From NCBI RefSeq assembly GCF_000024105.1, contig NC_013171.1, forward strand, positions 1,608,501 to 1,672,500: 64,000 bases of DNA, given 5' to 3'. The stretch's first letter is position 1; every line of letters starts with the position of its first letter. Under the pieces are notes generated by a model. It ran no database searches. It was not told the origin of the DNA and saw nothing but the letters and a program-made list of their open reading frames with translations. The stretch is from Anaerococcus prevotii DSM 20548 (GTDB lineage Bacteria > Bacillota > Clostridia > Tissierellales > Peptoniphilaceae). This document shows, in pieces, positions 7,903 through 62,852 of the stretch. A program made the translations under genes and the position numbers.

Positions 7903-7979
7903 CGGGGTGTGGCGCAGCTTGGTAGCGCGCGTGTTTTGGGAACATGAGGTCGAAGGTTCGAATCCTTTCACCCCGACCA
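7903..7979 (+). tRNA. tRNA-Pro (UGG)
   Basis: A 77-base cloverleaf with acceptor stem CGGGGTG/CACCCCG, discriminator A and an encoded CCA end. The anticodon loop TTTGGGA reads UGG, which decodes proline codons. The T-loop is TTCGAAT. It has its own strong promoter and terminator. Tandem copies of its 3' portion follow. Confidence 0.97.
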
Positions 7980-8014: not shown

Positions 8015-8062
8015 GTACGAATTTTTAAGTAACTACTATATATTATTAATTATAACATTATT

Positions 8063-8378
8063 GATGTTTGCGGCTTTGAGAAGGTGAGGATCGAAGATCC
8101 GAATCCTTTCACCCCGACCATAAATTTAAACTAGGTTTTAAAACCTAGTTTTTTTGTGCTCATTTTTAAGTAATCACTATATATTAATAATTGTAGGAAT
8201 TATTGATGTTTGCGGCTTTGAGAAGGTGAGGATCGAAGATCCGAATCCTTTCACCCCGACCATAAATTTAAACTAGGTTTTAAAACCTAGTTTTTTTGTG
8301 CTCATTTTTAAGTAATCACTATATATTAATAATTGTAGGAATTATTGATGTTTGCGGCTTTGAGAAGGTGAGGATCGA
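8063..8378 (+). repeat. 142-bp tandem repeats carrying tRNA-Pro 3'-end pseudo-copies
   Basis: Two full 142-bp units (8063-8204 and 8205-8346) are almost identical. A partial third unit starts at 8347 and diverges near 8379. Each unit contains a decayed tRNA-Pro 3' half ending CACCCCGACCA, with a changed T-arm, followed by a perfect terminator palindrome (AAACTAGGTTTT/AAAACCTAGTTT plus a T-run) and an AT-rich spacer. The tRNA itself plus its terminator and spacer (about 7940-8062) is the divergent founding unit. No 5' tRNA half is present in the copies, so they cannot be functional tRNAs. Confidence 0.85.
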
Positions 8379-8628
8379 TGGTGCTAATGCTTTCATAGTA
8401 AATTAACATTTGGAAAGAGATATCTCGACTTCGCTTCGCTTCGCTCGACGGTAGTTTTCGGATTCAGGACAAGCATAGCCTGTCCTTTATCTCGAAAAGC
8501 CTCGATTAAGGTCTGCCATCAATTCACTTACGTTCACTGTGGCCAGTACAATTAGATATAAGGGGTGGTTTGGTGACATAAGGGGAGTTTTACCTCCTAG
8601 GATCAGTTCTTTTTAAACTTTTCTACTA
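8379..8628. other. non-coding stretch after the tRNA repeats
   Basis: About 250 bases without a supported gene. It holds a short CTTCG run (8433-8450), a hairpin AGGACA/TGTCCT near 8466-8486, and the word ATCTCGA twice. I see no promoter or ORF worth calling. Confidence 0.5.
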
Positions 8629-42451: not shown

Positions 42452-42456
42452 ATAAG

Positions 42457-42480
42457 AGCAGGCCTTGGGTCTGCTTTTTT
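42457..42480 (+). terminator. terminator of tyrS
   Basis: AGCAGGCC/GGTCTGCT hairpin (with G-U) followed by T6. Confidence 0.8.
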
Positions 42481-42519: not shown

Positions 42520-43131
42520 ATGACAGAAAAAGAAAAGATGCTAAAAGGCTTACTCTATGATGCAAATTATAACAAAGAGCTCTTGGCTGATAGATTAAAG
42601 GCCAAGGACCTTTGCTTTAAATACAATACGACTCTTCCCTCAGATGAGGAAAGCTTAAGAAAAATCATCGGTGAACTTAAGATTAAAACTAAGGGAAATT
42701 TCTTCCTTACCCCTCCCTTTTATTGTGACTATGGCTACAATATATCTGTGGGAGAGAATTTCTATGCCAATCATAATCTCATTATACTTGACGGAAACAG
42801 AGTAAGTTTTGGCGATAATGTATTTATCGCTCCTTCCTGCACCTTTTCTACAGCAGGCCATCCTCTCGACAAGGAAAGAAGAAATAAAGGCCTCGAATAC
42901 GCCCACCCTATCACAGTAGGCGATGATGTGTGGTTTGGGGCAAATGTCACAGTCCTTCCTGGAGTTAAGATTGGTTCCAATGTAGTTATAGGAGCAGGAA
43001 GCCTTGTAAATAAAGACATCTCAGATAACTCTCTAGCCTTTGGCAATCCTTGCAAAGTAGTTAGGAAAATTACAGAGAAAGACATTGAGAATCTCTGGGA
43101 ATATAAGGAAAATCATGATTTGGAAGAATAA
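42520..43131 (+). CDS. sugar O-acetyltransferase (maltose/galactoside type)
   Basis: A 203-residue hexapeptide-repeat acetyltransferase of the Maa/LacA/NodL group. An N-terminal Mac domain (EKEKMLKGLLYDANYNKELL) is followed by left-handed beta-helix repeats. The catalytic His is in STAGHPLD, and VWFGANVTVLPGVKIG is the family signature. It transfers acetyl from acetyl-CoA to a sugar hydroxyl. AAAGGA lies seven bases ahead of the ATG. No sugar operon adjoins it. Confidence 0.94.
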   Translation: MTEKEKMLKGLLYDANYNKELLADRLKAKDLCFKYNTTLPSDEESLRKIIGELKIKTKGNFFLTPPFYCDYGYNISVGENFYANHNLIILDGNRVSFGDNVFIAPSCTFSTAGHPLDKERRNKGLEYAHPITVGDDVWFGANVTVLPGVKIGSNVVIGAGSLVNKDISDNSLAFGNPCKVVRKITEKDIENLWEYKENHDLEE

Positions 43132-43184: not shown

Positions 43185-43554
43185 GAGTAGCTTCGCCTGC
43201 TCTCAGACTGTAGACAAAATCAAAATCACCCTTATTTCGACCAGGTAAATAGCCATTGAATTGGCTATTTACCCCTCTGACTAGTGCGAAAGCACGGAAA
43301 AGTTACTAAGTAACGAGTCAGAGTACGGAGTGAGTGGAGAAATCTAATGAGATCTCTCCGTGCGTTCGTTTCACTCTCACTAAAACATATCGCAACATAT
43401 TAGTATATATGTCAATTTTTAAGTTTTAGGGTTAAATGTGCCAGTTAAGGCACATTTAACTAGTCGAGATAAGGGTAACTTAACGATAAAATAAATTTCG
43501 ATTAAAGTTAGTTGTCTACACTCTAAGAGTAGCTTCGGCTGCTCTTTTTTTTTT
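43185..43554 (+). ncRNA. candidate structured RNA or palindromic mobile element
   Basis: A non-coding, almost fully paired segment. Terminal 33-base imperfect inverted repeats (43185-43217, 43512-43544) include GTAGACAA/TTGTCTAC. Inside them are a 14-bp helix ACCCTTATTTCGAC/GTCGAGATAAGGGT (43228-43241, 43463-43476), a perfect 12-bp hairpin (43244-43273), and a three-way junction closed by CTCTGACT/AGTCAGAG (43275-43323) holding a GAAA tetraloop. ACGGAG/CTCCGT (43325-43361), CTAAAAC/GTTTTAG (43380-43429) and a second perfect 12-bp hairpin (43431-43460) follow. The 3' end is GAGTAGC-TTCG-GCTGCTC with ten Ts, a strong terminator. No promoter is obvious. A miniature transposon is the main alternative. 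Confidence 0.55.
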
Positions 43555-43686: not shown

Positions 43687-44886
43687 ATGAAAGAAAATCC
43701 AAACAAATTTAAGCTAATAAAAAAACCCCTTCTGATAAATGAAGCAGGGCTTGTGATCTATTATTATACAAATTGGCTAGCCGCCTCAAACAAAAACCAA
43801 TACAGCTTTGACGCTTCCTGTCCCGGCTTTTCTTTTTCAAAAGATTGGCTTCTAATGTCTATCGAGGATGTCTTTGGTTTCGAGAAGGCTTATGTCGATT
43901 TTGTAAAGAAGGTTAAGGCTGAGTCTTTTCCCTACTTGGAAGACTTCTTCACCGAAGAAAATAAAGATATACTAAATCTTTTTTATATTTTTACCGAAAA
44001 TGACGAAAATTATCTGCCCTTTTTTGCAGGGATCTTCCAAAATCTCAATATTTTTGACCTGGAAGATTTGACTTATGAATGTTTTAAGGAAGTCTATGAC
44101 TTTCGCTTCCTAAGATATATGGGAATTGAAATAAGTGATGAAAATCATAAGGATCTAAAGAGTCTAATCGATTCTAAAAAGAAGATTCTTAAAAGAGATT
44201 TCCCATATCTTTTGTCTAAGCTTCCATATAAGGATGAGCTTTCTATGGATCTTGTGAGATCTTTTACCAATACTAGGTCCATCTACGATAGGCTCCTTCC
44301 TCTGCTTGATAAGCTTTGCGAGATAATAAAGGAAAATATCCCCTTAATTAAGAGTGATCTTAATAAGCATTTGGACCATCTAGCAGAAGATGACTTCAAG
44401 CTTATAAGAGATCTCAGTGATCAAGTGGGTATAAATCCTCTTCTAAAAAAAATAGAATCTCCCCTTAATGTTTATAGTCTTATCATGGCTCCTAATATGG
44501 AAATGATTCAATATATGTCAGAAGATATGGACTTTGCCTTTATAAAGTTTGGTATATTTGCAGATAAGGAGAAAAAGAATGTAGGGAAGTTAAAACTCTT
44601 AAGCCAGTACCTTAAGGTTTTGGGAGATCCTACTAGGATTGACATCTTGGATTTGCTTATGGAAAAGTCCTACTATTCTAAGGAGCTTTCCGACAAGCTT
44701 TTCATTACTCCTGCCACCCTCTCCTACCATCTAAGTCAACTCCATGTTTGTGGCTTTGTAGGTGCTTACATCGAAGGCAGGAGGACTTATTACTATTTGA
44801 GAAAGCCTGGCTTTAAGAAAATTATAGATGACCTTAATGATTTTTGTAAAAATATAAGGGAGGAAAATCATGAAAGTAAGGAATGA
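43687..44886 (+). CDS. ArsR-type winged-helix regulator with large N-terminal domain
   Basis: A 399-residue regulator. The last 90 residues are an ArsR winged helix (LKVLGDPTRIDILDLLMEKS, then ELSDKLFITPATLSYHLSQL and the wing EGRRTYYYL). The first 300 residues are a helical domain of unknown type, probably the ligand sensor. No ArsR-type metal cysteines are seen. It is the first gene of an operon with two ABC exporter halves and overlaps the next gene by 17 bases, so it probably controls the exporter through the TTAGAT palindromes. Confidence 0.85.
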   Translation: MKENPNKFKLIKKPLLINEAGLVIYYYTNWLAASNKNQYSFDASCPGFSFSKDWLLMSIEDVFGFEKAYVDFVKKVKAESFPYLEDFFTEENKDILNLFYIFTENDENYLPFFAGIFQNLNIFDLEDLTYECFKEVYDFRFLRYMGIEISDENHKDLKSLIDSKKKILKRDFPYLLSKLPYKDELSMDLVRSFTNTRSIYDRLLPLLDKLCEIIKENIPLIKSDLNKHLDHLAEDDFKLIRDLSDQVGINPLLKKIESPLNVYSLIMAPNMEMIQYMSEDMDFAFIKFGIFADKEKKNVGKLKLLSQYLKVLGDPTRIDILDLLMEKSYYSKELSDKLFITPATLSYHLSQLHVCGFVGAYIEGRRTYYYLRKPGFKKIIDDLNDFCKNIREENHESKE

Positions 44887-58374: not shown

Positions 58375-58380
58375 ATAAGC

Positions 58381-58640
58381 AACAACAGTGATAAGAGGAG
58401 TAACCAAAGATTTTAGAATAAAGAGAATCCTAGCTGGTGTGAATGGAGATTTTAAATTTTGGTGAAAAAAGCCTTTGAGTTTTGTCGGGGATATTTGATC
58501 TGACAGCGGGACTTGCCCGTTATAGCAAGAGAGTATGATTGTACTTATTGAGTAGCTTTTCGTGAGATGAGCTAAAATTAAGGTGGTAACGCGAATTTTC
58601 GTCCTTATTGCTTCCGTTTGGAGCAGTAAGGACTTTTATT
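58381..58640 (+). promoter_or_regulatory. T-box riboswitch, probably lysine-specific
   Basis: A canonical T-box leader: GGAGTAA at the 5' side of Stem I, the distal AGAGAATCC...GCTGGTGTGAATGG loop motifs, and the antiterminator core AAGGTGGTAACGCG (58580-58593). An 11-bp terminator GTCCTTATTGC/GCAGTAAGGAC (58601-58611, 58623-58633) with a T-run follows. After the ACCAAA/TTTGGT helix the 3' side of the specifier loop is GTGAA-A-AAA-G, so AAA or AAG (lysine) is the likely specifier. Confidence 0.88.
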
Positions 58641-62746: not shown

Positions 62747-62789
62747 AAAAAAGCTGATGGCCCTACAATCAAGTAGAAGTCATCAGCTT
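62747..62789 (-). terminator. terminator or attenuator in front of the antiporter
   Basis: On the minus strand, AAGCTGATG (62781-62789) pairs with CATCAGCTT (62751-62759). An inner CTAC/GTAG helix is enclosed and a T6 run follows, ending only five bases before the AGGAGG ribosome site. It could terminate rnhA transcripts or act as an attenuator of the antiporter. Confidence 0.7.
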
Positions 62790-62852
62790 ATAGCGTTTAT
62801 TTTACAGGGAAGAACTTCATTTCCCTAAATTTATTTTACTTTTTATTTACCC

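Follow-up and report, generated by a model that had tools for sequence, protein, structure and literature searches.

The window analyzed here is a stretch of 64,000 nucleotides from Anaerococcus prevotii DSM 20548. Within it, an intergenic segment of 370 bp (43185-43554) lies between an acetyltransferase-like gene (42520-43131, plus strand) and a gene for a 399-aa protein (43687-44886, plus strand) whose C-terminal part resembles HTH regulators, both names being readings of the sequences. From the sequence of the window, the segment had been predicted to be densely paired in nested fashion, to lack an ORF, and to represent either a large structured RNA with its own terminator or a miniature inverted-repeat element (MITE). 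The pairing was borne out: the segment folds at -144.9 kcal/mol, whereas 100 dinucleotide shuffles gave -78.4 ± 5.2 kcal/mol and not one folded as well (z = -12.8), and each helix named in the prediction was found. These comprise an outer 8-bp helix, a long closing helix P1 formed by CCCTTATTTCGAC (43229-43241, plus strand) and GTCGAGATAAGGG (43463-43475, plus strand), two hairpins of 12-13 bp, a three-way junction with GUGC-GAAA-GCAC, and a last hairpin capped by UUCG and followed by ten T residues. One mechanically called ORF of 95 aa on the minus strand does overlap the segment, but there is no sign that it is a gene. In the Rfam search that had been proposed as a check, no family matched segment 43185-43554 at the gathering threshold or at a permissive threshold; the best score below threshold was 20.5 bits (cut-off 45), which does not place the segment in a known structured RNA family. 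Elsewhere in the window, Rfam thresholds were passed by a T-box leader (58379-58609, plus strand) and a fluoride riboswitch (62767-62833, minus strand), and 142-bp direct repeats with a 24-bp palindrome (8057-8395) were noted just after a tRNA gene (7903-7976).

Comparison with relatives divides the segment into host and inserted DNA. The orthologous sites in A. marasmi Marseille-P3557 (93% identical over 790 bp) and Anaerococcus sp. SUG34 (86%) carry no element, only a single hairpin, GAGTAGCTTCGGCTGCTC or near-identical, followed by a run of T residues. The window has two copies of this hairpin on the plus strand, GAGTAGCTTCGCCTGCTCT on the left (43185-43203), which carries one substitution, a G-to-C difference from the right copy, and has no T-tract after it, and GAGTAGCTTCGGCTGCTCT on the right (43527-43545), which runs into the T-tract of the host terminator (43545-43554). 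Between them lies a 322-bp block (43204-43525, plus strand) that is missing as a unit from the orthologous sites and occurs elsewhere with the same ends. It is bounded by terminal inverted repeats, CAGACTGTAGACAAA at the left (43204-43218, plus strand) and, from comparison of ends among copies, TTGTCTACACTCTA on the top strand at the right (43512-43525, minus strand), where the usual form is TTTGTCTACNCTCTG. Thus, while the predicted helices exist, two of them, the outer 8-bp helix and the hairpin capped by UUCG, are not parts of the element; they are the two copies of the host terminator. SUG34 provides a second empty site, at the locus occupied by copy L031 in genome G000.

The block is one of many dispersed copies. 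Among 41 genomes searched, matches were found in 15, of which 13 are within Anaerococcus, with up to 31 matching pieces each; close copies are present in A. marasmi (G018) and SUG34 (G004). Across 249 genomes of the order, solid matches were confined to Anaerococcus, and weaker matches to the core alone extended to two more genera of the family and to one genus elsewhere in the order. Copies begin with CAGA[CG][TC]GT[ACT]GACAAA and end with TTTGTCTAC[N][CG]TCTG, with occasional substitutions, and measure about 160-420 bp, with no gene inside. Short, non-coding, bounded by inverted repeats (CAGACTGTAGACAAA and TTTGTCTACNCTCTG), flanked by target duplications in 44 copies and absent from empty sites in two relatives, the element also has its ends in common with an autonomous element, an IS1182-family insertion sequence found in G042, G006, G043 and other genomes. 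The MITE alternative was therefore the one upheld. The original prediction had itself held that many dispersed copies with target-site duplications would speak against an RNA gene; the searches it proposed for both returned them, the duplication being a whole hairpin.

Each copy sits between two copies of one hairpin, whose sequence differs from locus to locus. For 56 candidate pairings of left and right flanks, the median pairing score was 16, compared with -4 for mismatched pairings, and flank similarity exceeded the 99th percentile of mismatched flank pairings in 47. In the 44 clean copies, drawn from about a dozen Anaerococcus genomes, the duplication was 15-28 bp long (median 18.5), the hairpin centre coincided exactly with the centre of the duplication in 23 and lay within 1.5 bp of it in 38, and stems of at least 7 bp were found in 24, compared with 2.3% of shuffles. 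A T-tract at the right or an A-tract at the left accompanied 37 of the 44 (both in 13). Given that the duplicated hairpins are locus-specific, centred on the duplication and mostly associated with T- or A-tracts, what is hit and duplicated whole is an intrinsic terminator or, at the least, some stem-loop; the seven clean copies with no clear T- or A-tract indicate that some targets may be stem-loops other than terminators. At one terminator, the MITE type in G000 (L022) is not the one in A. marasmi (L277); at another, the element points one way in SUG34 (L016) and the other way in A. marasmi (L043). Unlike flanking hairpins were seen for a few copies (L185 and L202). The same is true of an IS1182-family copy in G014 (L226) which, unlike other IS copies, lies between two different hairpins, perhaps as a result of recombination between two copies.

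The IS1182-family element carries, unchanged, the left terminal repeat of the window copy as its own left end, and the exact left end AGACTGTAGACAAA adjoins a transposase in G006, G015 and G007. The G006 transposase scores 436 bits against the NCBIfam model for the IS1182 family (NF033551, cut-off 270), and the Pfam domains of the partner transposase are DUF772 and DDE_Tnp_1_6. In G042, five nearly identical 1597-bp IS copies, four with an uninterrupted frame, have ends that match the MITE ends, and hairpin duplications of 21-26 bp surround all five, perfectly in four. A 1558-bp IS copy in G043 has terminal repeats of the same kind and a perfect 23-bp hairpin duplication. Other short elements with a different interior, of 195 bp (L166, L207 and L209) or 118 bp (L215), have the same ends and target. 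Other IS1182-type elements of Anaerococcus (523 aa, ends GGGGCTGTTGCA) were considered as the partner and rejected because their ends differ. A point against this pairing is that no intact partner transposase is present in G000, A. marasmi or SUG34, all of which bear the MITE, so that the partner IS is a putative source of the recent moves; the remnants there are a fragment of 71 aa in G000 and, in A. marasmi, a degenerate transposase. Long direct repeats are listed for members of the IS1182 family. Literature searches on the core palindrome sequence, on MITEs together with IS1182 and on Anaerococcus MITEs found nothing relevant.

The interior of the element is modular. All copies have a core palindrome, in the window GGAGAAATCT AATG AGATCTCTCC with CGTTCG/GAGTGA arms (43325-43378, plus strand), to which either or both of two optional modules may be added. 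Module A (43243-43324, plus strand) consists of a 12-bp hairpin and the three-way junction with its GAAA loop. Module B (43379-43460, plus strand) is a diverged, inverted counterpart. In reverse direction its layout is that of A, with a 12-bp hairpin followed by a three-way junction that bears an AGTGC-GAAA-GCAC-like hairpin and a second hairpin. A enters after TTATTTCGACC and B before TAGTCGAGATAA, points that face each other on the two arms of the central hairpin. Four forms result, core only (about 160 bp), core with A, core with B, and core with both, as in the window. Orthologous copies differ by one module, A for L031 (G000, core) compared with L017 (A. marasmi, core with A) and B for L032 (G000, core) compared with L041 (A. 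marasmi, core with B), in flanks 93-96% identical over 1.5 kb per side. Since these pairs have the junctions seen in every other copy, the differences point to module exchange between copies in situ, for which gene conversion is a plausible route, rather than to fresh insertions or deletions. Loss of modules by simple deletion between short repeats was judged unlikely, both junction forms being constant across species. Two longer copies in G001 (L187 and L188) have the module-B side partly duplicated in tandem, and in L188 the right end is duplicated too.

The core palindrome (CGACCGA...AGTGAG.GGAGAAATCT...GAGATCTCTCCATGCGTTCG...GTCGAGAT) also occurs with no IS1182-type ends, in G042 (L292), G002 (L294) and other genera of the family (L293 and L297), in clusters and in tandem arrays (about 155 or 220 bp); the MITE seems to have captured this older repeat. 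We also noted an IS110-family element (410 aa, NF033542) in A. marasmi, with four close copies (L300, L302, L304 and L306) and a whole one in L173. The four are all inserted at one site of the core palindrome, GA[TC]CTCT|TCTCC, three in MITE copies and one in a palindrome outside a MITE. The left non-coding end of the IS110-family element contains TGAGATCTCT, which reads in the sense of the left target half, and CGCGGAGA, complementary to the right half; the two are candidate target guides of a bridge RNA. The terminator after a tyrosyl-tRNA synthetase-like gene in the window (42452-42480) is empty here; the A. marasmi site has a copy of the MITE that is itself split by this IS110-family element (L039 and L306).

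Some of these properties would also suit a functional structured RNA selected in the host, be it an sRNA, a 3´ UTR regulator or a riboswitch-like element. The fold is very stable, the GAAA loop and three-way junction are retained, and, in a check for compensatory changes that the original prediction had suggested, the module-B hairpin covaries (97.5% of cells paired, both sides changed in 6 of 12 pairs, a result reached by 0 of 500 shuffles and similar in a second analysis). However, these double changes are of Watson-Crick type and no G-U intermediates are seen. A DNA palindrome being maintained, or selection acting on both strands, accounts for this no less well than an RNA function does, although in so small a sample this is only a hint. 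The lack of an Rfam match, the dispersion with target duplications and empty sites, the insertion either way round with respect to the terminator (11 forward, 7 reverse and 9 at two-way terminators) and the free variation in module content all argue against such an RNA, which we consider improbable. Given the covariation, the fold may nevertheless have some role, whether at the DNA or the RNA level.

Two further explanations concern the flanking hairpins. Two unrelated neighboring terminators with a hairpin-rich spacer between them, and no transposition, would account for a terminator-like hairpin at each end, but the hairpins are copies of each other, the relatives have only one, and the intervening block recurs at other loci with other hairpins; the empty site refutes this reading, to which we give almost no credence. 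That the element replaces its target hairpin and brings terminator hairpins of its own is scarcely more credible: the likely partner does belong to the IS family of IS1272, where replacing insertion is published (PMC5678879, PMC4923244), yet each locus has flanking hairpins of its own, and these match the one hairpin found where the site is empty, which refutes it. We are confident that 43204-43525 is a 322-bp non-autonomous IS1182-type MITE, one that is probably moved in trans and whose insertion into terminators is probably guided by their stem-loop form.

Mobilization would depend on an IS1182-family DDE transposase supplied in trans that recognizes the 15-bp terminal repeats. The transposase would insert the MITE at the stem-loop of an intrinsic terminator with joins at both feet of the stem, such that gap repair would copy the complete stem-loop to both sides, and the target would be chosen by its palindromic form, as hairpin or cruciform, and not by its sequence. 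Both the recognition of a DNA hairpin or cruciform and the joins at the stem feet are deduced from the products as seen in the sequences. A forward transcript would pass the left hairpin, which has no T-tract, cross the element and stop at the right hairpin and T-tract; at a two-way terminator, the opposite transcript would stop at the left hairpin copy. As termination would be kept for forward and, at two-way terminators, opposite transcripts, insertion is probably close to neutral. As for the strong fold of the interior, it could be explained by capture of an older palindromic repeat between the two terminal repeats, together with two optional inverted modules exchanged among copies. We lean slightly toward the combined model in which an IS1182-family transposase recognizes the terminator hairpin or cruciform, attacks both stem feet and duplicates the terminator, and in which the MITEs captured an older palindrome that is the programmed target of a bridge-RNA-guided IS110-family element. 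If true, this would represent a self-repairing safe-harbor strategy that leaves termination intact for the genes on both sides, with three mobile layers stacked at one terminator.

The closest known systems are IS1272 and TnSha1 of staphylococci, members of the IS1182 family that target stem-loops, often terminators, with no sequence specificity, and for which several insertions in both orientations have been found in one terminator (PMC4923244, PMC5678879). The Anaerococcus elements share the family of the transposase (that of the partner), the targeting of stem-loops and the repeated hits in both orientations on one terminator. In contrast to IS1272 and TnSha1, whose insertion deletes or replaces the stem-loop with no target duplication (PMC5678879, PMC4923244), the Anaerococcus IS and MITEs duplicate the whole stem-loop. 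As judged from sequence, they look like a branch drawn only as hypothetical, in which attack at the 5´ feet duplicates the stem-loop (Fig 13, pathway b, of PMC5678879). The mover is probably a relative of IS1272, and the element is classed as a MITE of an IS1182 partner group, not as an IS1272-type insertion. Group IIC introns also insert beside intrinsic terminators, but these are retroelements with a ribozyme, and no Rfam intron model matches the MITE segment.

A likeness in kind, by architecture only, is seen with the BOX elements of Streptococcus pneumoniae, which the parts of PMC3049150 that deal with them describe as modular, MITE-like and strongly folded, with the structure boxA-(boxB)n-boxC and optional internal modules. 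There the variation is in tandem boxB copies, whereas the MITE has one module type, inverted, on either arm of the core hairpin, usually at most one per arm. Among other short interspersed repeats in the same parts of that source, RUP of S. pneumoniae has terminal repeats and target duplications and SPRITE resembles a terminator, but duplication of a whole terminator is not reported there (PMC3049150), and for the MITE the terminator is the target and not the repeat itself. Hairpin targeting with deletion of the hairpin is known from IS1272; here the hairpin is duplicated, with empty sites and many stem-loop-centred duplications providing natural, sequence-level evidence for an outcome of IS1182-family transposition that a published model drew only as a hypothesis. 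This suggests a way for a transposon to occupy terminators without disabling them, provides defined targets and ends for the study of structure-guided target choice, and illustrates that a nested transposon, and not an RNA gene, may lie behind a very strong predicted intergenic fold.
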